Positions 24,401 to 42,650 of a DNA stretch of 58,630 nt are shown here, piece by piece. Each line of letters begins with the position of its first letter. Positions within the stretch are counted from its first letter, which is position 1. Below the pieces are notes generated by a model. It had not been told where the DNA came from and did not search any database. It saw nothing but the letters and a program-made list of their open reading frames with translations. The translations under genes and the position numbers were made by a program. Source of the DNA: Nitrospirota bacterium (GTDB taxonomy: Bacteria; Nitrospirota; Nitrospiria; 2-01-FULL-66-17); NCBI GenBank assembly GCA_016201825.1, contig JACQCD010000067.1, forward strand, positions 1-58,630, given 5' to 3'.

Positions 24401-24549
24401 GGTGGCCCGGTCGAACACGATCGGCCGGGCCTCGGCCGTGCGGCGCGAAGGGAGTGGCCCCGCAGACGGGCGATCGCGCTCAAAGGATGCCAGTTCTTGC
24501 AATCCGTCGATCCACCTCCTATACTCGTGAGCGAGTGTACAGGTCGTCC

Positions 24550-25654
24550 ATGCCCACCTTCGTCTGTCGAATCGGTAGTGCCGACGGAACGGTGTTGGAA
24601 GAGCGGTTGGAGGCGGAGAGTGAGGCGGACGCCAGACACCGCCTTGACCGTCGAGGAGCTGCTCGTCCTCATCAAGGCCGGCCTTCCCATGATGAAAGCG
24701 CTCGACGTGTTGGCGGGACGAGCGGGGCATCACGTGTTTCAGGCGGTGCTTGCTGATGTTCGAGAGCAGGTCCGCGGCGGGTCGTCGCTCGCGGACGCGA
24801 TGGCCAAGCACCCGCGGGATTTCCCCGAACTGTACGTCGCGTCCCTGCGTGCGGGCGAGCGGAGCGGGAACGTGGTTGAAATGCTTGTTCGATACCAAGT
24901 CTTTATGAAACGCATGCTCGCCGTTCGGAAAAAAGTCATCAGCGCGCTGTCCTATCCGACTTTTCTCTTGAGCGTCGGGGCGGGGGTGATCGTGTTTCTG
25001 CTGGCCTTTGTGATGCCCACCTTCCTCGATGTGTATCGCGAAGCCCAATCCGAGTTACCCGCCGCCACGCGTTGGTTGATGGCGCTGGTGGATTTTATGA
25101 AACACTGGGCGGTGCTGCTGGGAGTGGGGCTGGTGGCGGCCGCGGTGACCTTCCGATTGTGGTCCGGGACGGAAAACGGCCGGCGCGGGACGGATCGCCT
25201 CGTGCTGTACCTCCCGTTGGTGGGGCCGATCGTCCGCACCCACTATACGATCAGCATCGCGCGAACCTTGGCCACGATTTTGACGGGAGGGATCCCGTTG
25301 GTGTCGGCCCTTCGGATGGTCGCCGATTCGACGCCGAACCGGGTGATCGCCGACCATCTCCGCGGGGTCATTGAGCGGGTCAAGACCGGCAGCGGTGTGG
25401 CCGCCGCGTTTGGGGTGGGGGGCTTCATGCCCCGCATGACGCTCGAGATGATCGCGGTAGGCGAGACCACCGGAGCACTCGAAGAGATGCTCAACCAGGT
25501 GGGGGAATTTCATGAAGAGGAGCTGGATCGGAGCCTGACGCGGATCACGACGTGGGTCGAGCCCGTATTGCTGCTGCTCATGGGGGGGCTGGTGGCCGGT
25601 GTCGTGATCACGATGTATCTGCCGATCTTCAACCTCGCTGGGACGATCAAATAG
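24550..25654 (+). CDS. GspF/PilC-family inner-membrane platform protein, copy 1; N-terminus appears deleted/frameshifted
   Basis: Frame from 24550 reads MPTFVCRIGSADGTVLEERLEAESEADARHRLDRRG; the next frame continues LTVEELLVLIKAGLPMMKALDVLAG...LEPVLLLLMGGLVAGVVITMYLPIFNL; alternative ATG at 24689. Confidence 0.75.
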
Positions 25655-25656
25655 GA

Positions 25657-27378
25657 ATGAGGACGTTCCTCACCAAGAAACGCTTGGGCGATATTCTCGT
25701 CGAGCATGGGGTCCTCACGCCCGAGATCGTCATCGCGGCGGCTTCGACGGCGATGCAGGAGCGGCGCTGGATGGGCGCGGTCCTGGTCGAACAGGGGGTT
25801 CTGGACGAGGAACAACTGGCCAAAGCGTTGGCCGAGCAGTGGCGGCTGCCGTATTACTCGCTCTCGGGGTTTCACGTCGATCCCGGTTTTTTTAAGACGA
25901 TTCCGGTCGAGCTGATGTACCGGTATCCCTTCGTGCCCTACGAAGACCGAGACGGTGTGCTGACGATCGTCCTGGCCGATCCCACCAATCTTCCCCTGTT
26001 GGACGAGCTCGAGCTGGTGTTGCACCGCGAGCTGCGGTTCGGCATCGGGAGCCGATCGGCGATTCTCGAGTCGCTCAAGAAGAGCGAAGGCTCTTCCCAG
26101 GTCCTCAAGCGCATCGAGGCTGACTTCCGCCCCGTCCTGATCAAAGAGGACGACCGCGGCGAGGAAGTCCTGTCGGTGGAGAAGATCTCCAAGGATGCAA
26201 GTCCGGTCGTCCAGCTGGTGGATACGATGATCTTGAACGCGCTCCAGAAGCGGGCGAGCGATATCCATATTGAAGTGAATGAGCGCGGCGTGTCGGTGAA
26301 ATACCGGATCGACGGCGTCCTCTATCCCGCGATGGAGCCGTTGGATCTCAAGTTCCACGCGCCCATGATCTCTCGGATCAAGGTGATGTCCGAACTGGAT
26401 ATCGCCGAGAAGCGTGTCCCGCAGGACGGTCGCTTCAAGCTGCGGCTGGACAAAAAGAAAGTCGATTTCCGCGTGTCAATCTTGCCCGGTATCTTCGGCG
26501 AAACGGTCGTCATACGGATTCTGGACAAGGAGTATATTACCGCCGGCGTCAACCAGTTGCGGCTTGATCGCCTGGGGTTTAATCCGGAGGATCTGCGTCG
26601 ATTTCGCCGATCGATCATCGAACCGTACGGGATGGTGTTGGTGACCGGGCCCACCGGGAGCGGAAAGACCACCACTCTGTATGCGGCGATTGAGGAGATC
26701 AACACGCAGGAGGATAAGATCATCACGATCGAAGACCCGGTCGAATACCAGCTTCACCAGGTAGTGCAGATTCCGGTGAACGAAAAGAAGGGGCTCACAT
26801 TTGCCAAAGGATTGCGCTCGATCCTGCGTCACGACCCCGACAAGATCATGGTCGGGGAAATCCGGGACGCTGAAACGGCACAGATCGCCATCCAATCCGC
26901 GTTGACCGGACACCTCGTCTTCACCACGGTGCATGCCAACAACGCGTTTGACGTGATCGGTCGATTCGTCAATATGGGGATCGAGCCGTACAACTTTGTC
27001 TCGTCCCTGAACTGCATCTTGGCGCAGCGCCTCGTGCGGGCGATCTGTGAGGCGTGTCGGGAGCCGGCCGAGATCACGCGTGAACTCTGTGAAGCGTCCG
27101 GCTTGAACTACGATGAGTATCGGAACGCGCCCTTTTCTCAGGGGCACGGTTGTCCCGAATGTCACGGCACGGGATTTAGGGGGCGCAGGGCCATCACCGA
27201 GTTCCTGGACTTGTCCGATTCGATTCGAGAGATGATCTTGGACCGGAGGCCGCCGTCGGAAATTCGGAAAGCGGCCATCAAGGAGGGGCTCACCACGCTT
27301 CGCCAGGCTGGGGTGGAGAAGGTGGTCAGAGGCGAAACGACGCTGCGTGAAATCAACCGAGTCACGTTCATCGAGTGA
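25657..27378 (+). CDS. GspE/PilB-family assembly ATPase, copy 1
   Basis: N-terminal MshEN-like RLGDILVEHGVLT; Walker A GPTGSGKTTTLYAA; HDPDKIMVGEIRDAETA; CEAC/CPEC zinc motif. Confidence 0.93.
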   Translation: MRTFLTKKRLGDILVEHGVLTPEIVIAAASTAMQERRWMGAVLVEQGVLDEEQLAKALAEQWRLPYYSLSGFHVDPGFFKTIPVELMYRYPFVPYEDRDGVLTIVLADPTNLPLLDELELVLHRELRFGIGSRSAILESLKKSEGSSQVLKRIEADFRPVLIKEDDRGEEVLSVEKISKDASPVVQLVDTMILNALQKRASDIHIEVNERGVSVKYRIDGVLYPAMEPLDLKFHAPMISRIKVMSELDIAEKRVPQDGRFKLRLDKKKVDFRVSILPGIFGETVVIRILDKEYITAGVNQLRLDRLGFNPEDLRRFRRSIIEPYGMVLVTGPTGSGKTTTLYAAIEEINTQEDKIITIEDPVEYQLHQVVQIPVNEKKGLTFAKGLRSILRHDPDKIMVGEIRDAETAQIAIQSALTGHLVFTTVHANNAFDVIGRFVNMGIEPYNFVSSLNCILAQRLVRAICEACREPAEITRELCEASGLNYDEYRNAPFSQGHGCPECHGTGFRGRRAITEFLDLSDSIREMILDRRPPSEIRKAAIKEGLTTLRQAGVEKVVRGETTLREINRVTFIE

Positions 27379-28328
27379 GCGCAGTGATCACACGGTGGGG
27401 ACAAGGGACTCGATATGGCCTGGAGATTGCGCCCGATCTATTGACGCTCGTCCGTATCCGCGGTCGTGGCCGGCGCCGGGTCATGACCGGGTGGTGGACC
27501 CACCCCCTGCCCCCGGGGTTGCTCAGGCTGTCGCCGATCGAGCCGAACATTACCGACCAGGCCGAGTTCGGACGAGCGATCAGCGCCGTGCTCCAAGGGA
27601 ACCGGGTAGGTCCCGTGTCGGTTGCGTTGCCGGATCCCGTCGCCCGCGTCGTGCTCTTCGATGTGGCGCGTCTGCCCTCCCAGGCCAATGATCTTATCCA
27701 GTTGGTGCGCTGGCACCTCGAGAAAACATTTTCCGTCGAGCTGCCGTCCGCCCACTTCGTTCATCAGCGGTTTCGGCGATCAGACGGCGAACCAGGCCAC
27801 CGCATGCTTGCCTCGTCGATCGATCAAAGAGTGCTCACTCAATATGAGCAGGTGTTACTTCAAGCGGGGCTCGAACCTCGCGTGATCGATCTGGCCACTT
27901 TTCACCGCTTTAATCTTTATCGGCTCCAGATGGCCCACCTGGCGAAGCCCGAACACCACTTCATGTTTCTCGCCGTCACCGGAGCCTCGTTGACGGTGAT
28001 GATTTTCGAAAGCGGGACGCCAGCGTACGTGCGCATCAAAGGAACCAGGAAACCGCTGGTCGGTCCGGAGGCGGTCTACCGCATTCTGGACGAAGTCGAG
28101 CTCTCGTTGAATGCGTATGGAAAAGAAAAAGACCTGTCGCGGGTGACCCACCTCTTTGTGTCGGCGGTCGGCGCGTCCGATGAGTTGCCCGATCGACTGG
28201 CCGCACGCTTTCATCTGACGGCAAGGGTGTTGGGAGCAGAAGATGTCCTCCTCGACGGGATGGAGGCCATCCCCCCCCCAGAGCTGGCTTCCGGGGCGGG
28301 AGCGCTGGGGGCCGCCGTAGAGCGCTGA
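27375..28328 (+). CDS. PilM-like actin-fold pilus assembly protein, copy 1
   Basis: Actin-fold PilM-like sequence directly downstream of GspE and upstream of PilN/PilO-like genes. Confidence 0.65.
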   Translation: MSAVITRWGQGTRYGLEIAPDLLTLVRIRGRGRRRVMTGWWTHPLPPGLLRLSPIEPNITDQAEFGRAISAVLQGNRVGPVSVALPDPVARVVLFDVARLPSQANDLIQLVRWHLEKTFSVELPSAHFVHQRFRRSDGEPGHRMLASSIDQRVLTQYEQVLLQAGLEPRVIDLATFHRFNLYRLQMAHLAKPEHHFMFLAVTGASLTVMIFESGTPAYVRIKGTRKPLVGPEAVYRILDEVELSLNAYGKEKDLSRVTHLFVSAVGASDELPDRLAARFHLTARVLGAEDVLLDGMEAIPPPELASGAGALGAAVER

Positions 28329-30085: not shown

Positions 30086-31780
30086 ATGTCCCTCCCCCAG
30101 CAGAAGCGCAAAATGCTCGGCGAGATGTTGATCGCCGAAGGCCTGCTGACCGCGGAACAACTCGATCACGCCTTGGCCGAGCAACGTCGTCACGGCGGGC
30201 GTATCGGGGCGATCCTCAAAGGTCTGGGATATGTGACCGAAGAGGGCATCATCAAAACACTGGGCCGCCAAACCGGTATTCCCCATCAGACCCTCTCCAC
30301 AATCATTATCGATGCTGATGTCATCAAGTTAGTTCCCGAACTGCTCGCTCGCCGCCACCAAGCGATCCCCCTCTATAAGAAGGGGGAGACGCTGACCCTG
30401 GCGATGGTCGATCCGCTCAACGTGGTGGCGGTGGATGATATCGCCCGTGTCACCGGCTTGGAGATCCAGCCCGTGGTCAGTACCGAGCAAGATGTCATGC
30501 GGGCGATCGAACGCCAGTATGGGATGAGCTCGACGATTGAGGAGGCGGTCAAGAATCTCGAACCCTACGATGACCGGCAGGACGCTCAATCGGTCCAGAT
30601 GGAGCGATTGGCCGAAGAGACGCCGGTCGTCAAGTTCGTCGCAACGATCATCACCCAGGCTGTCCACGAGGGGGCCAGCGATATCCACATCGAACCGGAC
30701 CCCGAAGTGCTCCGCGTGCGCCACCGGGTTGATGGATTGTTACGGGAGATTACTACCGCTCCGAAGGGCCTCCAAGGGGGGGTGTTATCTCGGATCAAGA
30801 TTATGGCCGGCATGGATATCTCGGAAAAACGAGCGCCCCAGGACGGCCGGATCGAGATGAAGGTCGGCGAGCGCGATATTGATCTCCGGGTCTCCACGCT
30901 CCCGACGATCCATGGCGAGAAAGTCGTTCTCAGGATTCTGGATAAGCGGCAGAGCGTGATTAAACTCTCGGAGTTGGGGTTTCCCCCGTCGATGTACGAC
31001 GTCGTCCATCGGTTGGTGGAGCGGCCCCACGGTTTGTTTTTGGTCACCGGCCCGACCGGGGGCGGGAAAACCACCACGCTCTGCGCAGCACTGAACACCA
31101 TCAATACGATGGCGCGCCACATCGTGACGATCGAGGACCCCGTTGAATATCAGATGAAGATCATTTCGCAGGTTCAGGTCAACCCCAAGGCCGGGGTCAC
31201 GTTCGCCAACGGGTTGCGGTCGATCCTCCGCCAAGACCCCGACGTGATCATGGTGGGCGAAATCAGAGACCGCGAGACCGCGACCATCGCCATCCAAGCC
31301 GCGTTAACCGGTCACCTCGTTCTCTCCACCCTCCATACGAACGATGCTCCCAGTGCCGTTGCGCGATTAATTGATATCGGGGTCGAACCATTCCTCATCG
31401 CCTCGTCTCTTCTAGGCGTCATCGCTCAACGCCTGGTGCGAAAAGTGTGTCTCACGTGCCAGAAACCAGAGGAGCTTCCTCAGAACGTGTTGAAGGGCCT
31501 CGTTCTTGAAGCGAGCACCGTCAAGCCCATGAAGGGGGTCGGATGCACCGGGTGTCGGAACACCGGATACAGCGGGCGGATTGGGATCTTTGAGTTGTTG
31601 ACGACCAACGACGCCCTTCGCGAACTGATCGTCGACAGAGCGTCAGCCTCTCGGATGAAGGCGGAGGCACTGCGGGCCGGCTATGTTCCGCTGCGGCAAG
31701 CTGGATTGGCCAAGGTTGCGGTCGGGCTGACCACCTTGGAGGAAGTCTATCGAGTCACTCAAGAAGTCGACGGGGAGTGA
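30086..31780 (+). CDS. GspE/PilB-family assembly ATPase, copy 2
   Basis: MshEN-like N-terminus; Walker A GPTGGGKTTTLCAAL; RQDPDVIMVGEIRDRETA; CLTC/CTGC zinc motif. Confidence 0.93.
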   Translation: MSLPQQKRKMLGEMLIAEGLLTAEQLDHALAEQRRHGGRIGAILKGLGYVTEEGIIKTLGRQTGIPHQTLSTIIIDADVIKLVPELLARRHQAIPLYKKGETLTLAMVDPLNVVAVDDIARVTGLEIQPVVSTEQDVMRAIERQYGMSSTIEEAVKNLEPYDDRQDAQSVQMERLAEETPVVKFVATIITQAVHEGASDIHIEPDPEVLRVRHRVDGLLREITTAPKGLQGGVLSRIKIMAGMDISEKRAPQDGRIEMKVGERDIDLRVSTLPTIHGEKVVLRILDKRQSVIKLSELGFPPSMYDVVHRLVERPHGLFLVTGPTGGGKTTTLCAALNTINTMARHIVTIEDPVEYQMKIISQVQVNPKAGVTFANGLRSILRQDPDVIMVGEIRDRETATIAIQAALTGHLVLSTLHTNDAPSAVARLIDIGVEPFLIASSLLGVIAQRLVRKVCLTCQKPEELPQNVLKGLVLEASTVKPMKGVGCTGCRNTGYSGRIGIFELLTTNDALRELIVDRASASRMKAEALRAGYVPLRQAGLAKVAVGLTTLEEVYRVTQEVDGE

Positions 31781-31883: not shown

Positions 31884-33170
31884 ATGGTCGAGTTGGAGTT
31901 CCAACATGGCACACGCTTTGCCTATGTCGTCAGCCCAATGACCGTTTATCGCTATAAGGCTCGTGATTCGAATGGAATCCTCATGACCGGGGTCATGGAA
32001 TCCTCTGGACGCGAAGCGGCCGCCCTCCAGCTGGATCAACTGGGTTACCTTCCTATTCGGATCGAGGAAACCAAGGGGTGGGATTGGCGGGAGTCCATCA
32101 AGGCGTTCGAGACCTTCACGACCCGCATCAGCGCCGAAGATCTCATCATCTTGACACGCCAGATGGCGACGCTGATCACAGCGGGACTCTCTTTTGTCTC
32201 GGTGTTCGACGCGTTGGTCGAACAGACCATGAATCCAAAACTCAAGGGTATTCTCATCCAAGTTCGGCAAGATGTAGAAGGTGGGATGGCATTCTCCGAT
32301 GCGCTGGCTAAACACCCGGCTGTTTTTGACCACTTGTATGTCAGCATGATCAGAGCAGGGGAGACGGCTGGTGTGTTGGACGAGATGTTGGATCGTTTGG
32401 CGTTTTTGGCCGAGCACGATGCGGAGACCCGGGCGAGGATCAATGCAGCGACCAGGTACCCCAAGATTGTTCTGGTGGCGCTGGCGGTGGCGTTCGGTAT
32501 CTTGGTGACATTCGTCATCCCCCGGTTCACTATTCTGTATGACAATTTTCATGCCACCCTTCCTTTTCCGACACGCATGTTGATTGGTCTCAATAATCTC
32601 GTTCACTCCCATGGCCTTGTTGTGCTCATTATGCTGATAGGTATTATCTTTGGTGCTCGCGCGTATCTTAAGACACCCGTCGGCCATGCTTGGTGGGATA
32701 CGATGCAGCTTAGACTGCCGATCTTCGGACCGTTGCTTCTCAAGTCAGCATTGTCGAGGTTTGCGCGCGTGTTCGGCACCTTGAACCGATGTGGACTGCC
32801 TGCCTTGGAAGCACTCGATATTGTCTCCAAAACAGTGGGTAACGTCGCCTTGTCCCGGGCCATTGACACCATCGGCGAGGGTGCACGTCAGGGGCGAGGC
32901 CTTGTGCAGCCGATGAAGGCCAGCAAGCTGTTCCCTGCTGGTGTAGTCCAAATGATTTCGATCGGTGAGGAAACCGGACAATTGGAGCCGATGCTTATGA
33001 AAGTGTCCGAGTACTACGACCGGGAAGTCGACTATGCGATTAAGAACCTCTCGGCCTCGCTCGAACCGATGTTGCTGGTTGTGATTGGTGGCGCCGTACT
33101 GTTTTTGGCCTTGGCGATCTTTCTTCCCTGGTGGAACCTCATTAACGTCTTCAAAGGGGGCGGAGGTTAA
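31884..33170 (+). CDS. GspF/PilC-family inner-membrane platform protein, copy 2 (intact); start uncertain
   Basis: VYRYKARDSNGILMTGVMESSGREAAALQLDQLGYLPIRI...ILTRQMATLITAGLSFVSVFDAL; the true start may be the ATG near 31939 (MTVYRYKARDS). Confidence 0.9.
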   Translation: MVELEFQHGTRFAYVVSPMTVYRYKARDSNGILMTGVMESSGREAAALQLDQLGYLPIRIEETKGWDWRESIKAFETFTTRISAEDLIILTRQMATLITAGLSFVSVFDALVEQTMNPKLKGILIQVRQDVEGGMAFSDALAKHPAVFDHLYVSMIRAGETAGVLDEMLDRLAFLAEHDAETRARINAATRYPKIVLVALAVAFGILVTFVIPRFTILYDNFHATLPFPTRMLIGLNNLVHSHGLVVLIMLIGIIFGARAYLKTPVGHAWWDTMQLRLPIFGPLLLKSALSRFARVFGTLNRCGLPALEALDIVSKTVGNVALSRAIDTIGEGARQGRGLVQPMKASKLFPAGVVQMISIGEETGQLEPMLMKVSEYYDREVDYAIKNLSASLEPMLLVVIGGAVLFLALAIFLPWWNLINVFKGGGG

Positions 33171-33570: not shown

Positions 33571-33667
33571 ATGTTCGTGAGGCGTGTGGGTATGTTGTGA
33601 GCAAGCAAGGGGCATCAGCGAAGGCATTCATCGTGTCTGGTCAACCAAACAACAGGAGGGCGTCGAA

Positions 33668-34108
33668 ATGAAGCTAGTCAAGGACCAATCTGGTTTTACG
33701 ATGATCGAATTGGTGGTGGTGATTGTGATCCTAGGTATCTTGGCGGCGTTTGCGGTTCCGCAATTCGCTAACCTCCGCACGGAAGCCCGAGTTGCGGCGG
33801 TCAACGCCATGGCCGGTGGTCTACGAGGCGCTGTGGCAGTCGCGCGGGCGAAGTACCAGGTGGTAAATAGCTTGGCAGCGACGACCGTTGACATGGATGG
33901 GGTTTCCGTAACTGTTTCGGCCGCAACGGGCATTCCCCGCAGCGCGACCGGAGGTATCAATCTGGCCATCGCGGACTATAGTGGGTTTACCTACACGACG
34001 GGTGCTCCTACGGCGACCTTTTGGCCGGCCAGTGGGGGAAGCGCGACGTGCGACGTGACCTATACTGATGTCACCGGTGCTGTAGGCACAAATATAGGCG
34101 GTTGTTAG
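33668..34108 (+). CDS. Type IV pilin (tandem copy 1)
   Basis: MKLVKDQSGFTMIELVVVIVILGILAAFAVPQFANL class III/IV prepilin signal; C-terminal Cys pair. Confidence 0.92.
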   Translation: MKLVKDQSGFTMIELVVVIVILGILAAFAVPQFANLRTEARVAAVNAMAGGLRGAVAVARAKYQVVNSLAATTVDMDGVSVTVSAATGIPRSATGGINLAIADYSGFTYTTGAPTATFWPASGGSATCDVTYTDVTGAVGTNIGGC

Positions 34109-34237
34109 TCGGGGGGGGCAAAACGCCGAGTTGCCACGGGCATGGGTTCCTCAGTGCAACCACGCAATCCCTTAAGTCCCCATTCTCAAAAGTGGACAGG
34201 AAGAAAAGGCGTCTATCTAAAAAAGGAGGATGTTAGA

Positions 34238-34678
34238 ATGCGAGTACTTAAGAGCCAATCGGGTTTTACCATGATCGAGCTGGTGGTGGTGATCGTTATC
34301 CTGGGGATCTTGGCGGCGTTTGCGGTTCCGCAGTTTGCCAATCTTCGTTCCGAGGCACGGACTGCAGCCGTCAATGGCATCGCTGCTGGCCTTCGAGCCG
34401 CTGTGGCGGTGGCGAAGGCGAAGTACCAGGTCGTGAATAACATGGCGCTAACGACCGTCGACATGGACGGGAACTCGGTCACCGTCACGGCTGCTACGGG
34501 CGTTCCCCGCAGCGCGACCGGAGGTATCAATGTGGCCATTGCGGACTATAGTGGGTTTACCTACACGACGGGTGCTCCTACGTCGACCTTTTGGCCGACC
34601 AGTGGGGGAAGCGCGACGTGCGGGGTGACTTATACTGATGTTACTGGTGCTTTGGTTGTGGACACAAGCACCTGTTAG
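34238..34678 (+). CDS. Type IV pilin (tandem copy 2)
   Basis: MRVLKSQSGFTMIELVVVIVILGILAAFAVPQFANL; same length as copy 1, offset exactly 570 nt. Confidence 0.92.
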   Translation: MRVLKSQSGFTMIELVVVIVILGILAAFAVPQFANLRSEARTAAVNGIAAGLRAAVAVAKAKYQVVNNMALTTVDMDGNSVTVTAATGVPRSATGGINVAIADYSGFTYTTGAPTSTFWPTSGGSATCGVTYTDVTGALVVDTSTC

Positions 34679-34776
34679 CGGGACGCGAACAAATAGCTGT
34701 GAGGAGAGGCAGGCCGGAGGAAGTCGTGCCTGCCTTTTCTCTTCGAGGCGGAGGCGATACGGGTTCAAAGAAGGAT

Positions 34777-35304
34777 ATGAGAAAGGCCACGGTGGCAGCC
34801 AATCTCAGGAGCGTCAGAGGGTTCACGCTGATCGAGCTTGTTGTCATCATCGTGATTGTCGTCCTTCTGGCGGCGGCCGCGGTTCCTCGTCTGGCCAACA
34901 TGACCGGTATGAAGGCGTCGGCGAGCGCACGAAGGCTTCAGTCGGATATGGCATATGCCCAGAATCTGTCCATGTCCCAGAATCAACGATTCAGAATCGT
35001 TTTCCTTTCTACGACGTCGTACGAAGTCAGAGACCAATCCGGAGTGCTGGCAACGAACCCTGATGGGGGAGCAGGCTTTGTTGTGACGACGGACGCTGGG
35101 ATCACGCTGAGCTGGCTTCTCAACGCCGATGCAGCGATCAATAGGGGAGTCGAGTTCGACGGCTTGGGTCGCCCATACCTGTACGCGGGCATCACGCCGT
35201 CAATTACGGACCTGGTGAATGGAACTGTCACGGTGACTGGCGGGCCTCCCCCCCCCCAAACCGTCACGGTGCAGCCCCAGACCGGACGGGTGAGCACACC
35301 GTAG
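34777..35304 (+). CDS. GspH/FimT-like minor pseudopilin
   Basis: VRGFTLIELVVIIVIVVLLAAAAVPRL prepilin motif; RLQSDMAYAQNLSMSQNQRFRIVF. Confidence 0.85.
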   Translation: MRKATVAANLRSVRGFTLIELVVIIVIVVLLAAAAVPRLANMTGMKASASARRLQSDMAYAQNLSMSQNQRFRIVFLSTTSYEVRDQSGVLATNPDGGAGFVVTTDAGITLSWLLNADAAINRGVEFDGLGRPYLYAGITPSITDLVNGTVTVTGGPPPPQTVTVQPQTGRVSTP

Positions 35305-35358
35305 GCGATCGCGGGCTTTGCCCCGATATCACAAAAGATGGTTTGAGGGCTTGGTTTG

Positions 35359-35805
35359 ATGCAGGAACGGGGCTTCACACTCATCGAGACGGTGATCGTG
35401 GTGGTCGTCATCGGTTTGGCGTTTGGGATTTTGGTCCCATTCGCGGTGAGCCTCAGAAATAGCCCCTCGCCTGTGTTAACCGAACTGGGGGTTGCTTTGG
35501 CTCAGGAAAAAATCGAGCAGATTATTGCGGATCGCCGGGATACGGGTATTCCGAGAGGTTTTGTGTACGCGACGACTCCGGCGAATTATCAGGCGGAGTC
35601 GTCGGCGGTCGTGGGATTCGACGGCTTCACGCGCTCGGTGGCGATCGCCTGTGTGACCACAGCGGATTTTAAGGCGGCTGGCGCGGCTCCCAGTCCCTCA
35701 TGCGCGGTCAGCGCCGGGCAAACCGATTACGCCCGCGTCACCGTCTCAGTGAGTCACTCTACCTTTGGCAGTCTCACCGTGGAGGCGTTGCTCGCGAATT
35801 ATTGA
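35359..35805 (+). CDS. PilV/GspI-like minor pseudopilin
   Basis: MQERGFTLIETVIVVVVIGLAFGILVPF. Confidence 0.8.
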   Translation: MQERGFTLIETVIVVVVIGLAFGILVPFAVSLRNSPSPVLTELGVALAQEKIEQIIADRRDTGIPRGFVYATTPANYQAESSAVVGFDGFTRSVAIACVTTADFKAAGAAPSPSCAVSAGQTDYARVTVSVSHSTFGSLTVEALLANY

Positions 35806-35842: not shown

Positions 35843-36373
35843 ATGTCCAACTGGCATCTTAAAAACGTAAGGCATGGAGCGCTTGTGTTTAATCGACGGC
35901 AGGCCGGATTCACTTTTATCGAGTTGGTCATCACGATCGTGCTTGTCGGAATCATCTCAACAATCGGCTCGCTGCTCATCATGCAAGGGACGAAGGAGTA
36001 TATCGCCCAGGACGTGAGGGCCGGCCTTGCGAACCAGGGGCGACTGGGGATCGAGCGAATGGCACGAGAAATTCGGGCTATCCGAAGTCGAACGGCGGCG
36101 GACATTCCCGTGTGGGGCGCCGGGACCTTGCAGTTCACCGATGTGACAGGAGCTGCCATTACCTACACGGTCGGTGCCGGGGCATTGACAAGGAATGGGA
36201 CGGTTCTCGCTTCGGACGTCTCAGGCCTGGCATTTTCATACCTTCAAAATGACGGCGTCACGGCAGCCACCGCCGCCACCAACATCTGGATCATCCAGAT
36301 CAATCTCACCGTGACCAGATCCGGTGAGACGCAAACCCTTCGCATCCGTGTTCACCCCAGGAGTTTTACGTGA
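35843..36373 (+). CDS. PilW/GspJ-like minor pseudopilin
   Basis: RQAGFTFIELVITIVLVGIISTIGSLLI; RLGIERMAREIRAIRS. Confidence 0.85.
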   Translation: MSNWHLKNVRHGALVFNRRQAGFTFIELVITIVLVGIISTIGSLLIMQGTKEYIAQDVRAGLANQGRLGIERMAREIRAIRSRTAADIPVWGAGTLQFTDVTGAAITYTVGAGALTRNGTVLASDVSGLAFSYLQNDGVTAATAATNIWIIQINLTVTRSGETQTLRIRVHPRSFT

Positions 36374-38262
36374 GACCCTGGCTGAGGCGTATTCTGAGTT
36401 CCGAGCGTGGCGCGTCGCTCATTGTCGCGATTTTCCTGATCGTCATTGTGGGGTTCTTCGGTACGATAATGGGCTCGTTGATCAGCACGCAGAATTTCAC
36501 TGCCCTGAACGAGGTGCGGTCCACCCAGGCATTGTACGTGGCCGACGGTGGCCTTGAGCGGGCCCTGTACGCATATCGGAACGGCACTCCGTGCAATACG
36601 CTTGCATACGCTGCCGTTCCGTTAGGCTCTGGAAACTTTACGACCACCGGAACGCTGTACAATCCTACGTCCACCACGCTCTCGGCTCCTGGTATTACGG
36701 ACTTCGCAACCGATATTCCTGTGGCGCCCACCGTGGGATATGCTCCTCACGGGCGGATCAGAATCGAATCGGAGGAGATCACGTACGCGGCGTTCGTCGG
36801 CAACACCTTCACCGGCGCACGACGTGGGGTGGCGGGGACCGCCCGCGCCTCTCATCTACCCGGGGTGGCCGTATCCCAGAACGAGTGCGTGGTGCGATCA
36901 ATCGGAAATATTCCGGGCGCAGTAGGGACCGGTCAGCGGGTAGTAGAGATGGCCGAAGGTGGGGTCAGTACGCGGCAGGGAAGCTTTACCAAACAAAATG
37001 GGTTAGGTAATCAAGTCATTACCGGAGTAGGCTTCCGTCCCAAGGCCGTGCTTTTTTATTGGACGCGCCACACGGCCGTCCCGCCTGCCGTCTCGCCTTT
37101 TGCGCCTCAGAATTCTCGGAATAATTTGGGAGTCGGGTTTGCGAGCGGTCCGGCCAATGTCGGTGCGGTTTCGGTAACGGCGCGAGACAGACGAAACAGT
37201 TCGGATGACGGGCGGATGCGATCGGCCACCTATCCGATCATTTTCCTGACCGGTGGAGGTGGAGGAGGGCAGCCGACCGTGGTGGCGAGAGCGCAGTTGG
37301 CCTCGCTGGACGCAGATGGGTTTACCATCAACTGGACGACCAACACGGATGCCAATCCGTATATTGTCCATTATGTGGCTCTGGGAGGTGATATTACCAA
37401 TGCCATGGCCAGCACCTTCAACTTAACGACCGCCGCTGGTAATCAAGCGGTGGCCGGTCTAGGCTTTCGGCCCGACTTCGTCATGTTCCTGTGGAGCTTC
37501 ACTGAGGCTGTGGATACGACCGGGGTTGGGAACACTGAGATCGGCGTAGGCTTTGCGGCTGGTCCGGCATCCAGGGCGGCGATGGTGTATTCGGGACGAG
37601 ATGCAATTGGATCCAATCTCGATAAAAGATGGTGGCAGCGAACGGACTCGGCGATCTTACTTTTTGACCCGGCCCCCGTTGGCCCACCCTTGACGCCGAG
37701 CCAAGACGCTATTGCAGACTTTGTGTCGATGGATGCAGACGGTTTTACCGTAAACAAATCAGATCCGCCTGCAGCAGCCACTCCCATCTTCTTTCTAGCT
37801 CTCAGAGGCGGTCGTCACAGCGTAGGAGCGTTTAATCAAGCCACCGTGGTGGGCAATCAGAGTATCGCCGGAGTCGGCTTCAAGCCGGAACAATTGTTTA
37901 TGGCGAGCTTCAACCTGTCAGCGACCAACGTAATTTCCTCGCTGGGAGGTATCTCGTACGGTGCCGCTCAGTTTCCCGCGACCAGAGGGAGTGTTTGGCT
38001 CCAAGATCGAACCGACAACGATCCGTCGGATGCCAATATGTACACGGCGACCACCGATGCGATGACGATGGCCAATGGGACTGCTGTAGGCTTTGCAGAC
38101 GGAAACCCCGTCGTTCAGGCTCAGGCTGGCCTCGCTTCGTTTGGAAGCGATGGGTTTACGTTGAACTGGACGACGGCGTCGGTTCCATCCCGGCAGGTTC
38201 TCTATTGGGCGATTGGCCCCAACGTGGCGGTCAGTAGGGTTGATTGGCAAGGGTTGTACTGA
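36370..38262 (+). CDS. PilX-like protein fused to three ~135-aa repeats (putative pilus-tip adhesin)
   Basis: PilX-type N-terminus ERGASLIVAIFLIVIVGFFGTIMGSLI...ALYVADGGLERALYAYRNG; repeats GNQVITGVGFRPKAVLF / GNQAVAGLGFRPDFVMF / GNQSIAGVGFKPEQLFM. Confidence 0.8.
   Translation: MRPWLRRILSSERGASLIVAIFLIVIVGFFGTIMGSLISTQNFTALNEVRSTQALYVADGGLERALYAYRNGTPCNTLAYAAVPLGSGNFTTTGTLYNPTSTTLSAPGITDFATDIPVAPTVGYAPHGRIRIESEEITYAAFVGNTFTGARRGVAGTARASHLPGVAVSQNECVVRSIGNIPGAVGTGQRVVEMAEGGVSTRQGSFTKQNGLGNQVITGVGFRPKAVLFYWTRHTAVPPAVSPFAPQNSRNNLGVGFASGPANVGAVSVTARDRRNSSDDGRMRSATYPIIFLTGGGGGGQPTVVARAQLASLDADGFTINWTTNTDANPYIVHYVALGGDITNAMASTFNLTTAAGNQAVAGLGFRPDFVMFLWSFTEAVDTTGVGNTEIGVGFAAGPASRAAMVYSGRDAIGSNLDKRWWQRTDSAILLFDPAPVGPPLTPSQDAIADFVSMDADGFTVNKSDPPAAATPIFFLALRGGRHSVGAFNQATVVGNQSIAGVGFKPEQLFMASFNLSATNVISSLGGISYGAAQFPATRGSVWLQDRTDNDPSDANMYTATTDAMTMANGTAVGFADGNPVVQAQAGLASFGSDGFTLNWTTASVPSRQVLYWAIGPNVAVSRVDWQGLY
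36981..38225 (+). repeat. Three divergent tandem protein repeats (approx. 36981-37395, 37411-37810, 37831-38225)
   Basis: Each starts GNQ-x-[IV]-x-G-[VL]-GF-[RK]-P and ends with a ...DGFT[IVL]N... strand. Confidence 0.8.
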
Positions 38263-38421: not shown

Positions 38422-38691
38422 ATGAAAACCAGCGAACTCCTCCAGCGTATTGACATTCCCCGGCACAAACTCTACTACCTCGAACAGAAGGGCTACGTGA
38501 GCCCGCAACGAATCCCAATGGGAGATCTTGAAGCTCGGGAGTTTTCCGAGGCCGATGTGCGGCTGGTCCAAGCGATTTGGAAGTATCTCAAACAGGGGTT
38601 TAAGCACAAGGTGGCTTACCAAAAGGCGTTGGGCGAGTCGGACAACCGTCCCTCGGCGAACCACCGGGCACGGCGGAGGAAGGTGGCGTGA
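38422..38691 (+). CDS. Stand-alone MerR-type winged-helix DNA-binding protein
   Basis: MKTSELLQRIDIPRHKLYYLEQKGYVSPQRIPMGDLEAREFSEADVRLVQAIWKYLKQGFKHKVAYQKA; no effector domain. Confidence 0.8.
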   Translation: MKTSELLQRIDIPRHKLYYLEQKGYVSPQRIPMGDLEAREFSEADVRLVQAIWKYLKQGFKHKVAYQKALGESDNRPSANHRARRRKVA

Positions 38692-39710
38692 GGTTCTTCG
38701 GGGCCCGGCGTTCGATCGTTGGGTGCGACTTGGGGCGTGGTGCGGTCAAGCTGGTGCAACTCGCTCAGAAATCGGGTGGGTGGAAAGTGGTCCACGCCCA
38801 ACTTCAAGAGCTCACCCCCGAGTCGCGTGATGACGAGGAATGGCCAAGTCCTCAAGCCATTCAATCCGCCATGCAGGCTCGATGGGTTGCCGATCAGTCC
38901 GTTGCGGTGAGTCTGCAGAGTCGGCCTGCGGTGGTCCGCCACATCGAACTCCCCCCGATCCCGGCTCATGAATTGTCCGAAGCGCTGCGATGGGAAGCCA
39001 AGAAGGTGACGTCTTTAGGGGACGGTGAAGCCATCGTGGACTATCTGGCTGGGGAGCCGTCGGATCGCAAGGTGCCGGTCACCATGGTTGTGGCCGAGCG
39101 GGCCGGGGTCGACAGGGAATTCCAGCAATATCGACGTTCGGGACTCCAGGTTTCCGCCATGGAGATCAACCCTGTTGCGTTCTATCATGCGGTCCACCGG
39201 CTTGGACAGGACCAAACCGGAGCAGGGTGCGTCGCCCTGGTCGATATCGGGGCCGGTCGAATGGACATCAGTATTGCGAAGCACGGGACTCTCCGGTTCT
39301 CCCGGAGTATCTCGTTGGGGGGCAATGCCCTTACGCAGAGCCTCGTGGAGAAATTCGGTGTTGACGTGAGTCAGGCTGATGCCCTGAAGCGAGAACAGGG
39401 GCTATCCGGGAAGGCGAAAGTGCTGGAAGCGCTGGGTCCGGAGGTCGACCGCCTGATCGTTGAAATCCAGCGCTCCATCGATTACTACCGCGCGCAATCA
39501 CACGACGGCGCCCTTGAACGCATGCTGTTGGCGGGAGGGACTCCGTTAATGCCGGGGTTCGTCGAGTATATTTCCTCGTTCTTCGACGCGAAAGTCAGCT
39601 TATTTAACCCCTTCGAAGGGATGGATTGCGGAACCGTTGGGTCGGATCTGGAGCCGGTCGCTCCCCGGTACGCGTCAAGCGTGGGGTTGGCGTTACGAGG
39701 ACGTGCGTGA
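38688..39710 (+). CDS. pilM: Type IV pilus assembly protein PilM
   Basis: RRSIVGCDLGRGAVKLVQL; ALVDIGAGRMDISI; SIDYYRAQSHDGALERMLLAGGTPLMPGF. Confidence 0.92.
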   Translation: MRFFGARRSIVGCDLGRGAVKLVQLAQKSGGWKVVHAQLQELTPESRDDEEWPSPQAIQSAMQARWVADQSVAVSLQSRPAVVRHIELPPIPAHELSEALRWEAKKVTSLGDGEAIVDYLAGEPSDRKVPVTMVVAERAGVDREFQQYRRSGLQVSAMEINPVAFYHAVHRLGQDQTGAGCVALVDIGAGRMDISIAKHGTLRFSRSISLGGNALTQSLVEKFGVDVSQADALKREQGLSGKAKVLEALGPEVDRLIVEIQRSIDYYRAQSHDGALERMLLAGGTPLMPGFVEYISSFFDAKVSLFNPFEGMDCGTVGSDLEPVAPRYASSVGLALRGRA

Positions 39711-40294
39711 AGAACACGATCAACCTGCTCGACGATCTACTGCGAGACGGCAGGCCTCAGCCCGGCAAATGGTTCCTGTTTGCGGCCGCCGGTGTTGGGA
39801 TCCTTGCACCGTTCCTTGTCTGGGGGCTTCAGGTTTGGGCTGCCGGACGTCTCGATCCGCAGATCGTCCAGATGAGATCCACTCGCGACCACCTTACGCA
39901 GGAGGTGGCGCAGCGCCGGCAGGTCCTTCAAGAGAGCGATGCGCGGCAGGCGCGCCTCACGGAAGAACGGATTCAGACCGCCGGCATCCCCTGGTCGGAA
40001 GTCTTACGCGAATTAAGCCTCGTTGTTCCGGATGGTGTGTGGCTGACCCAGTTCGAAGAGATCGCCCCGCAGGAGAACACGACAGACATCGCCGTTCGAA
40101 TTCAGGGAGTGGCGGCATCTCAGGGAGGAGTGGCCGAGTTGCTCGTACGCCTCGAGACAGCACATCACCTTGCCCAGCCGCAACTCGTCTATTCTCAACG
40201 AAACAGTGGTGTGTCCGGTCGCCTGAACTTTGAGGTCCACTGCATCATCGTGCGGGCCTCATTCTCTGACCAACCACAGCCGGGACCAGGGTAA
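39707..40294 (+). CDS. pilN: Type IV pilus assembly protein PilN
   Basis: INLLDDLLRDGR; TM helix; VPDGVWLTQFEEI; GTGA overlap with pilM stop. Confidence 0.88.
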   Translation: MKNTINLLDDLLRDGRPQPGKWFLFAAAGVGILAPFLVWGLQVWAAGRLDPQIVQMRSTRDHLTQEVAQRRQVLQESDARQARLTEERIQTAGIPWSEVLRELSLVVPDGVWLTQFEEIAPQENTTDIAVRIQGVAASQGGVAELLVRLETAHHLAQPQLVYSQRNSGVSGRLNFEVHCIIVRASFSDQPQPGPG

Positions 40295-40875
40295 TGGAGT
40301 GGCCGTGGCTCATCCGAGTCTCCTCGTGGCGTCCCAGTCGCCGCGAGCAGTTGGTGGTGGCACTGGCGGTTGCAGCCGGCATCGTGTTCTTGGGGTTGTT
40401 ACTCGATGTGCCGTCGGTCAAACGAGTCAAAACGCTTGAAACCGAGCGACGTGCCCTGGAAAGAGAGATCGCGACGCTGCAAAGCGAACTCAGCCGATCC
40501 GGTGTTCAAGGCGATGTGACGAGTCCAACGGAACTTCATAGGGACACGGCGAACGAGGACATCCGTTTCTCTACCCTTCTCAGCGATCTGGCGGCGCTCG
40601 CTGAACGGAGTGCCGTCGATTTTATCGCGGTGCGACCGATCGCTGTCCCAGGAAAGACCGGCGCTCTTGAGGTTGAACTGAATGCCCCCTTTCGAGTGCT
40701 TGGCGCCTATCTCAACGCGTTGGAGCAGTCCCGCTGGAGGCTGACCATTAACAATATTCGCCTCGGGCGAGACTCGGAACACGCCACCCTGGTCTCAGCC
40801 CGGTTTACGGTGGCTAGTCCCACAGTTCTTCTGGGATTGGCGACAGGTGTTTCGGAAAGCCAGCGACGACCGTGA
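40294..40875 (+). CDS. pilO: Type IV pilus assembly protein PilO
   Basis: Single N-terminal TM, coiled coil, VELNAPFRVLGAYLNALEQSRWRLTINNIRL. Confidence 0.85.
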   Translation: MEWPWLIRVSSWRPSRREQLVVALAVAAGIVFLGLLLDVPSVKRVKTLETERRALEREIATLQSELSRSGVQGDVTSPTELHRDTANEDIRFSTLLSDLAALAERSAVDFIAVRPIAVPGKTGALEVELNAPFRVLGAYLNALEQSRWRLTINNIRLGRDSEHATLVSARFTVASPTVLLGLATGVSESQRRP

Positions 40876-41267
40876 AGATTGGACTGCATAGAGAGCGCCT
40901 GTATCGGGCCATTTTGGTAGCCACCCTGATAGGGGTGGGCACGTTTGTCCCGGTGTTCCCATTTAATAATAATGAGGTGTTCCCGGCTCCTCCATCAAGC
41001 GACGATCTTGCGCGGTGGGGGAAAGATCCGTTCAATCGTCCACCCGATCCGGTATCTGCTGAGGCTGGTTCCTCCGGTTCCTTCGTGGAGCTACGAGGTG
41101 TGATCGCTGGGCCGACCGGGGTGGTCGCTATTCTCAACCATGACATTGTAAGGGTTGGGGATCGTGTTAATGGAGAGATCGTTGTTGATATTACCCCGAG
41201 TGCCGTTGTGTTGAAACGGGGACAGCAAGTGCGTCGGGTGGTCATTCGTTCGTTCGCCCTCCCGTAA
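40872..41267 (+). CDS. PilP-like protein
   Basis: RWGKDPFNRPPDP...VELRGVIAGPTGVVAILNHDIVRVGDRVNGEIVVDITPSAVVLKRGQQVRRV. Confidence 0.75.
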   Translation: MKIGLHRERLYRAILVATLIGVGTFVPVFPFNNNEVFPAPPSSDDLARWGKDPFNRPPDPVSAEAGSSGSFVELRGVIAGPTGVVAILNHDIVRVGDRVNGEIVVDITPSAVVLKRGQQVRRVVIRSFALP

Positions 41268-41279
41268 GGAGAGAAGGTT

Positions 41280-42650
41280 ATGGCGCAGCGAGGGTGGTGG
41301 GTCGTCCTCTGTTTTTGGTTGAGCGTGGCCGTATGGAGCATCCCGGTTGGCGCGCAGGATCAAGGACAGATTTCTGTCCAACGAAGTGCTGCCGGGGGCA
41401 ATCGGTATTCGATGGAGTTCCGGGATGCCGAGCTCAAGGATGTGCTCCGGGCAATTGGCCAAGAACGTCGCTTAAATCTGGTCATCAGCGATGAGGTGGC
41501 GGGCAAACTGACCCTCAGTTTTCAAGATGTGGCGCTCCCGGAGGCGCTCGATGCGATATTAAGGATGGGTAACCTGGTTAAAGTCCAAGAAGGACCCATC
41601 ACGCGCATTATAAAGTCTCCATTCAGTGATGGTGAAGGCCAGCTCGTAACCCGAATGCTGTCGATTCAGTTTGCCAGCGCAAAAGATCTCAGCGAATCCG
41701 TCAAGAGCCTGATCAGCAAGAAGGGAAGCGTCACCACTGATTCCCGGACCAACACCCTGATCATCCGCGATTTACCGGAAAGCATCGAGAGAATTTCCCA
41801 ACTTGTCAGGCAGTTGGACTCTAAAACGCCTCAAGTCATGATTGAAGCTCGAATCGTCGAGGCCAATACCAACTTCACTCGTGAACTCGGAGTGCAGTGG
41901 GGCGGACTGCGAACGACTCAGGGCGGCAATCTGCTCACAACCCTCCACGGAGGGGCGACGAAAAAGCTGTCAACGGACACCGTTGCCCAAGCCTTGACCG
42001 GGGGTATCGGTCTCAGCGGGGGGCCATTTGCCGTCAATTTGCCGGCCAACGTCGGACCTGGGCACGGCGGATCATTTGGCATCACCTTCGGAAATCTCGC
42101 TGATACTCTTCGCTTGGACCTCCAGCTTTCAGCTCTGGAAGATACGGGTAAGGGGAAGATTCTGTCGACACCGCGAATTCTGGCGTTAGACAACAAAGAA
42201 GCAAAGATCTCGAGTGGAACGGAAATTCTCATACCCGTGACCTCGATCGTCACTGCCGGGGCAACGACCGGCGGTGGGAGTGCCGCAGGGCAGACCGGTG
42301 TGACCACGATTAACGCCAAACTTGAATTGAGCGTGACGCCTCATGTGACGCCGACCGGAGAAATCGTTCTACACGTTGTTGCAGACAAAAAGGACCCCGA
42401 CTATACTCGGGCAGTTCTGGGTATCCCTCCGCTGACGACACGGACGGCTGAAACCGACCTCTTGGCAAAAAATGGTGAGACCGTCGTCATTGGAGGCATC
42501 TATACGAAGAGCGAGCAAGTCGATGAGAGCGGCGTGCCGTTGCTCTCAAAAATCCCGTTCCTTGGATGGCTTTTTAAAACCCGGTCGACGATTGAAAGCC
42601 AGAACGAGCTTCTCATATTTATTACGCCAACGATTCAACAGGGACTATAA
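41280..42650 (+). CDS. pilQ: Type IV pilus secretin PilQ
   Basis: SMEFRDAELKDVLRAIGQERRLNLVISDEVAGKLTLSF; PQVMIEARIVEANTNFTRELGVQWGG; ETVVIGGIYTKSEQVDESGVPLLSKIPFLGWLFK. Confidence 0.95.
   Translation: MAQRGWWVVLCFWLSVAVWSIPVGAQDQGQISVQRSAAGGNRYSMEFRDAELKDVLRAIGQERRLNLVISDEVAGKLTLSFQDVALPEALDAILRMGNLVKVQEGPITRIIKSPFSDGEGQLVTRMLSIQFASAKDLSESVKSLISKKGSVTTDSRTNTLIIRDLPESIERISQLVRQLDSKTPQVMIEARIVEANTNFTRELGVQWGGLRTTQGGNLLTTLHGGATKKLSTDTVAQALTGGIGLSGGPFAVNLPANVGPGHGGSFGITFGNLADTLRLDLQLSALEDTGKGKILSTPRILALDNKEAKISSGTEILIPVTSIVTAGATTGGGSAAGQTGVTTINAKLELSVTPHVTPTGEIVLHVVADKKDPDYTRAVLGIPPLTTRTAETDLLAKNGETVVIGGIYTKSEQVDESGVPLLSKIPFLGWLFKTRSTIESQNELLIFITPTIQQGL

Follow-up and report, generated by a model that had tools for sequence, protein, structure and literature searches.

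In the window (the whole 58,630-nt stretch of Nitrospirota DNA analysed here), the minor pilin encoded last in the set of a type IVa pilus operon consists of a conserved pilin stem, a linker of about 8 residues, a complete protein of three modules whose nearest relatives are phage proteins, and a short conserved tail. Judged from sequence comparisons and predicted structures, this 630-aa protein is probably a modular tip pilin that displays a phage-derived binding cassette.

The pilus operon and the pilin stem

ORF calling and translation place the gene at 36370–38262 on the forward strand, with a GTG start codon that overlaps the PilW stop by 4 nt and an AGGAG box 8 nt upstream. It is embedded in an operon of the order PilB-PilC-pilins-minor pilins-(MerR-like)-PilM-N-O-P-Q (Table 1). 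Because PilM and PilQ pass their curated cut-offs (TIGR01175, 154 bits at a cut-off of 133, and TIGR02515, 351 bits at a cut-off of 284) and PilB carries a c-di-GMP-binding N-terminal domain (NF053729, 59 bits, above the cut-off of 38), the operon is assigned to a type IVa pilus. The source is a 2.8-Mb draft genome, estimated to be 89% complete, in which three PilT-type ATPases score over cut-off. The two major-type pilin genes (33584–34678) are tandem near-duplicates, and in most of the Nitrospirota loci that were read, the K pilin and PilM genes are separated by a small, conserved MerR-like HTH gene. A set of GspF-, GspE/PilB- and PilM/GspL-like genes at 24497–28328, directly upstream of this operon, suggests a separate secretion or pilus machine.

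Table 1. Features of the pilus operon and of related loci. Positions refer to the window unless a locus is named.
Feature	Position	Strand	Basis
PilB extension ATPase with N-terminal MshE-type c-di-GMP-binding domain	30086–31780	+	NCBIfam TIGR02538, 621 bits (cut-off 676)
PilC platform protein	31884–33170	+	PilC/GspF matches of ~345 bits, under their cut-offs
Two tandem major-type pilins, both GFTMIELV with Glu5	33584–34108, 34142–34678	+	Pfam N_methyl, E 1e-8 and 4e-8
FimT/GspH-like minor pilin, Glu5	34699–35304	+	N_methyl over cut-off; GspH E 6e-4
PilV/GspI-like minor pilin, Glu5	35356–35805	+	N_methyl over cut-off
PilW/GspJ-like minor pilin, Glu5	35843–36373	+	N_methyl over cut-off
Conserved K-type pilin stem, about aa 1–194 (to 198)	36370–36951	+	Alignment, AF2 helix, translation
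Module R1, beta-sandwich, aa 202–345	36973–37404	+	AF2 pLDDT 88, pTM 0.82, 10 strands
Module R2, aa 346–484	37405–37821	+	Full-length model, most pLDDT blocks over 90
Module R3, aa 485–618	37822–38223	+	pLDDT mostly 72–96, one block 48
Tail VDWQGLY, W-x-[EG] class	38239–38259	+	Tail count on stems
MerR-like HTH gene, marks the syntenic position	38422–38691	+	Pfam MerR_1 E 1e-5; synteny
PilM, PilN, PilO, PilP, PilQ	38688–42650	+	PilM and PilQ by models; N, O and P by position and synteny
Separate secreted-looking ~600-aa genes, ends [WYT]-x-E-x-F	L125:5191–6915, L134:2367–4223(-), L121:7977–9770, L131:1664–3754(-)		

A preliminary description, made from the sequence alone, had called the protein a PilX-like minor pilin closing the minor-pilin set. 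Both statements hold, as it is of the K type (PilX/GspK-like), with a class III leader and no Glu5, and stands last in the H-I-J-K order, with PilV, PilW and PilX correctly placed. The order FimT-PilV-PilW-stem is found in the window and in most of the relatives read. The leader is MRPWLRRILSSERG, and the hydrophobic alpha1 that follows begins ASLIV (junction MRPWLRRILSSERG/ASLIVAIFLIVIVGFFG; mature residues A1-S2-L3-I4-V5; helix modelled over aa 12–70). None of the aligned stems has Glu5, which is present in FimT, PilV, PilW and the pilins. The proposed PilX_N-type segment (PF14341) gives a match below threshold in the 630-aa protein itself (E 0.03; 14.7 bits, cut-off 25.5); more distant pilins that the same stem profile detected match it better, and L130 passes at 41.4 bits.

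In the full-length AF2 model, a long helix at the N-terminus is followed by a stem head of poor resolution and by the three modules; in the head, where the alignment is only two sequences deep, pLDDT is 30–50. This small head carries the motif GRIRIESEEITY...RGVAGT...H. In the form IxxEEIxY...FTGAxRGxxGTxxxxH (stem aa 123–176), the head motif gives a weak match to the phage virion structural family phrog_4406.

The three modules and their phage relatives

The three divergent repeats of ~135 aa that had been read from the sequence are real. They are 134–144 aa long and match each other in pairwise blastp with E = 3e-16, 3e-14 and 2e-9, and their local-alignment scores (162, 156 and 116) lie far above shuffled means of ~32 (sd ~6; 500 shuffles), which rules out chance or artefact. 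In the motif originally given for them, GNQ varies across relatives; the well-conserved core consists of G-x-GF-x-P close to the start of the repeat and D-x-DGFT towards its end. A single repeat modelled in AF2 with 86 alignment rows folds into a ten-strand beta-sandwich (mean pLDDT 88, pTM 0.82), and R1 and R2 are mostly over 90 pLDDT in the full-length model. The orthologues in L003/G283 and G031 likewise have three repeats. Each repeat is 58–68% identical to its counterparts in the other pilins compared with about 30–33% to its neighbours within the protein, indicating that the triplication is old.

The modules are an unnamed, undescribed beta-sandwich family. No family in Pfam, NCBIfam, PHROGs or the PDB covers them, in agreement with the earlier remark that the repeat is unlike named pilus proteins, and searches of these databases with the 630-aa protein returned sub-threshold or spurious matches only. 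The cytoplasmic enzyme domain against which the preliminary description wanted the modules checked did not appear, as they have no enzyme-like match in the same four databases. DUF7483 (PF24299) matched weakly (E 0.003) in one of the 86 aligned modules, with no pilin module singled out. Foldseek with a module against the PDB, a check likewise proposed at the outset, gave no convincing solved structure; the candidates (spike, galectin and the tailspike 6e1r, TM 0.33) were too weak to assign a fold class. Profile matches in the PDB to designed WD40 proteins (7bie etc.) were discarded because their scores add up eight partial matches to VTGVGFxP of ~9 bits each; an H-type-lectin identity was dropped because no such match appeared anywhere.

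The repeat is not peculiar to this protein but a widespread phage module: a profile of nine repeats identified 39 viral loci in IMG/VR, on environmental phage contigs. In most intact phage cases the ORF comprises the three-module unit and little else (409–442 aa), starting 3–6 residues before module 1; other copies form the N-terminal third, or an internal part, of virion proteins of 1200–1300 aa. In several loci the neighbourhood is clearly that of a phage, often with tail genes. In L036, a tape measure gene, Dit (PHROG E 3e-25) and a 109-aa ORF precede the unit, in L041 it adjoins a tail-fibre protein gene, in L047 it comes after a tape-measure match, and in L062 the contig also encodes a major head protein. 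L063 and L059 each have a single module, at the C-terminus: in L063 the N-terminal part gives a match to phage tail proteins (E 2e-10), and in L059 the module follows a collagen shaft and tail-fibre PHROGs are matched. Foldseek against viral models detected two phage proteins with probability 1.00 and E ~1e-5 (BFVD A0A516MN50 and A0A6J5R113). A three-module unit also opens a secreted-looking protein of ~1,400 aa beside a CxxCH-rich (multihaem-like) gene in genome G190 (L015; C46, ~99.2–100.4 kb).

By hmmsearch and a register test, the phage unit contains three homologous modules in register with those of the pilin unit: 51 of 85 were in register, compared with 28 expected and a maximum of 45 in 10,000 permutations. 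The three repeats are one inherited unit and not a local tandem duplication, and as phage and pilin units have their modules in the same order, capture or transfer of the unit as a whole is probable. An unrooted tree of 34 units places the three pilin units in one clade (100/100), apart from 29 phage units. Since the pilin units form one shallow clade among diverse phage units, transfer from phage to bacterium appears to be the simpler direction. A single-sequence tblastn search with the whole 630-aa protein found nothing among GenBank phages and plasmids, and a phage copy used as query matched one uncultured phage group at 28% identity. Copies of the module are present in five of 396 genomes of the phylum, and only three pilins with the phage-type unit were found. 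An origin from a prophage in the source genome was rejected, as this genome has no second copy of the module.

Passengers and tail on a common stem

The stem was detected in 26 of 58 relatives searched, where it carries at least the following passengers, or none. The phage-type unit follows it in the window, G031 and G283; a passenger of GWAVG repeats in G001 (same genus), G004, G006, G008, G011, G015 and G029; a beta class that we term HL in G013, G017, G035, G036, G042 and G050; and a further beta class in G025, G116 and a second G283 gene, which blast places in the HL cluster on account of C-terminal parts in common. G061, G084 and G225 have singleton passengers, and passenger-free stems occur in G002 and G020, among others. 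The position between PilW and the MerR and PilM genes is common to G031, G017, G036, G001, G004, G006, G029, G011, G025, G002 and G020; at the corresponding locus the same-genus genome G001 has GWAVG repeats, not the phage-type unit. Relatives thus differ in what the common stem carries at this locus, and it seems that specificity is altered by exchanging the passenger. Comparison by hhalign revealed no relation between the phage-type and HL passengers, and a search for viral relatives of the HL passenger found none. In G283, two stem genes in tandem (L003 7543–7950 / L115 7514–8976) are almost identical in their alpha1 segments; the phage-unit gene of this genome looks frame-disrupted at its start, and its tail lacks Trp.

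The history of the stem was followed in a tree trimmed before the passenger, which supersedes a first tree whose untrimmed stem ends included passenger residues. A clade of the three phage-unit stems was rejected (AU p 0.0036), a result that rests on three rows and weakened to p 0.079 with a less tightly trimmed alignment. The G031 stem groups with HL stems of its own family, and the G283 stem with others of its own group. This conflict between stem and passenger trees is good, but not overwhelming, evidence that passengers have been exchanged.

Behind the passenger, the proteins share a short tail. The pattern W-x-[EG] plus 1–4 residues ends 16 of 18 complete passenger-bearing stems (e.g., DWREVY, DWIERFQ and SWKEVIQ) compared with none of 18 passenger-free stems (Fisher 4e-8, with rows that are not independent), and 23 of 488 random ORFs. 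The two exceptions, SQREVYP and MMNEVF, are both from G283. At the DNA level the tail pattern occurs once in the source genome, at the 630-aa gene. In G002, G036, G020 and G012, a separate ORF of ~600 aa after a passenger-free stem ends in WQEQFR, YREEFR, YREDFR or TREDFP. The restriction to passenger-bearing stems and the similar ends of these separate ORFs make it unlikely that the tail is just the last strand of the pilin fold; that it is a docking or sorting signal is our guess.

Proposed tip display, alternative explanations and known systems

Modular pilins are widespread, with more than 1,200 proteins in 264 architectures (PMC8179133, PMC9934059). The tip complex is capped by K subunits, which lack Glu5, and the tip is the only place that can accommodate bulky modular pilins (PMC9934059). 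The 630-aa protein has the extra C-terminal domain foreign to type IV pilus biology by which Raynaud 2021 defines a modular pilin, as its modules are related to phage tail-region proteins; the definition also includes a direct function of the extra module, such as adhesion, which here would be the proposed binding. The earlier proposal of a tip-displayed binding module fits a K-type pilin that is last in the H-I-J-K order, lacks Glu5 and has a bulky C-terminal beta module with relatives in phage tails. In such a model, prepilin peptidase would cleave after Gly14 and the stem would pack with PilV and PilW, priming and capping the pilus, and the three beta-sandwich modules would stick out from its tip. 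Their role there may be the one that they would have in phage tails, to bind a ligand on a surface; probable ligands are a glycan or envelope component of another cell, or a mineral or EPS surface, although no solved structure matches the module and so points to a ligand by homology. PilT retraction would then pull on the contact between module and ligand, and specificity would be altered by exchanging the passenger between an unchanged stem and tail.

The preliminary description had named the absence of pilY1 from the rest of the genome as a check. The check failed, as two PilY1-type genes (PF05567; 1487 and 1302 aa) are present on contigs C70 and C51, in other pilin cassettes, and the C70 gene adjoins PilW and a 190-aa PilX. 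Because they belong to other minor-pilin sets, they leave a tip role possible for the pilin studied here. The PilY1 proteins could be the main adhesins. Their presence also bears on an explanation that we consider unlikely, namely that the modules stiffen the tip, or serve to present a separate partner (for instance PilY1 or a secreted adhesin of small size), without binding a ligand themselves. Some phage copies lie N-terminally or internally in virion proteins of 1200–1300 aa, so that the module may be a shaft or adaptor, and the separate ~600-aa secreted proteins with a similar tail after passenger-free stems suggest docked partners. However, single modules end tail-fibre-like proteins at the C-terminus, the usual site of receptor-binding parts, and the substitution of unrelated passengers at one locus suits a change of specificity better than a fixed structural part.

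Alternatively, the displayed phage module could act as a decoy that occupies receptors on the own or sibling cells and blocks superinfection by phages with this module. Tree shape points to a phage origin of the module, and the distribution of the pilin copies, which occur in distant Nitrospirota but have been lost from close relatives or replaced there, would suit a defence-like trait; yet identity between the units and the phage copies found is only about 30%, a phage of these bacteria is not known here, and other passengers at the locus showed no phage link (for the HL class, no viral relative), which makes this very improbable. We give the least credence to a type II secretion-like or export minor pilin whose modules act on or carry a secreted substrate. 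Type II K subunits also lack Glu5 and have an inserted domain, and the window contains the neighbouring GspF-, GspE- and PilM/GspL-like set at 24497–28328, but PilM and PilQ exceed curated type IV pilus cut-offs, the PilB model is the best for the ATPase, GspD and GspE models stay below theirs, and the modules lack an enzyme-like match.

The tip pilin with a phage-derived binding cassette, which we prefer, may be part of a more general arrangement, of which we are less convinced and which we regard as somewhat doubtful: a plug-in site in which the fixed K-pilin stem and the W-x-E tail flank a cassette replaced by recombination between bacteria, including complete phage receptor-binding proteins, with the tail as a signal for docking or surface sorting that tip adhesins share whether they are fused to the stem or not. 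If this is true, pilus specificity would be re-set with phage parts.

The adhesive pilins PilB and PilC of Streptococcus sanguinis (PMC8179133) follow the same grafting principle, as PilB (vWA) and PilC (lectin) likewise join a pilin stem to an unrelated bulky C-terminal module that fits at the tip only (PMC8179133, PMC9934059). In contrast to them, the protein studied here has a phage-type unnamed module, three of which form one unit, the passengers at its locus vary in close relatives, and a W-x-E tail follows the passenger; moreover, S. sanguinis is a monoderm without PilY1, whereas the source bacterium is a diderm with PilY1 elsewhere. PilX and GspK share the operon position, the class III leader, the lack of Glu5 and a PilX_N-like alpha1, but GspK has an extra alpha-domain inserted in the pilin sheet, whereas the 630-aa protein has an unrelated, beta-rich addition at the C-terminus. 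The likeness to PilC/PilY1 (PF05567) is one of proposed role, that of an adhesin presented at the tip in which a constant carrier bears effector domains that can be exchanged; PilC/PilY1 is a separate secreted protein with a propeller, in contrast to the pilin fusion, in which a search for the PF05567 propeller gave no match. The three-module proteins of phages (IMG/VR loci L026–L062) are about 30–39% identical per module in the same order, but they begin at the start codon or sit within tail or fibre proteins, and none has the pilin stem or W-x-E tail. In the Kil/Tad pili of Myxococcus, a large minor pilin likewise customises the tip with its C-terminal domain (PMC12075869); these are Tad (type IVc) pili with several paralogous tip sets per genome and unrelated domains, whereas here passengers are swapped between genomes at one locus.

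In the open-access literature we found no paper on phage tail modules on minor pilins, which by itself does not prove that there is none. Modular pilins are known in principle; new are the unnamed phage-type three-module passenger, a stem whose passengers are exchanged at a single locus, and the common C-terminal tail. These observations address the question of how modules reach pilins and how tip specificity changes. One chromosomal position with one stem and several unrelated passengers across related genomes provides a natural series for asking whether the passenger alone sets binding specificity, and one of these passengers can be traced to complete phage proteins with the module order intact. 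Bacterial adhesion would thereby be tied to a reservoir of phage tail modules, and it appears that pilus tips are refitted through the exchange of entire binding units, of which some apparently come from phages.
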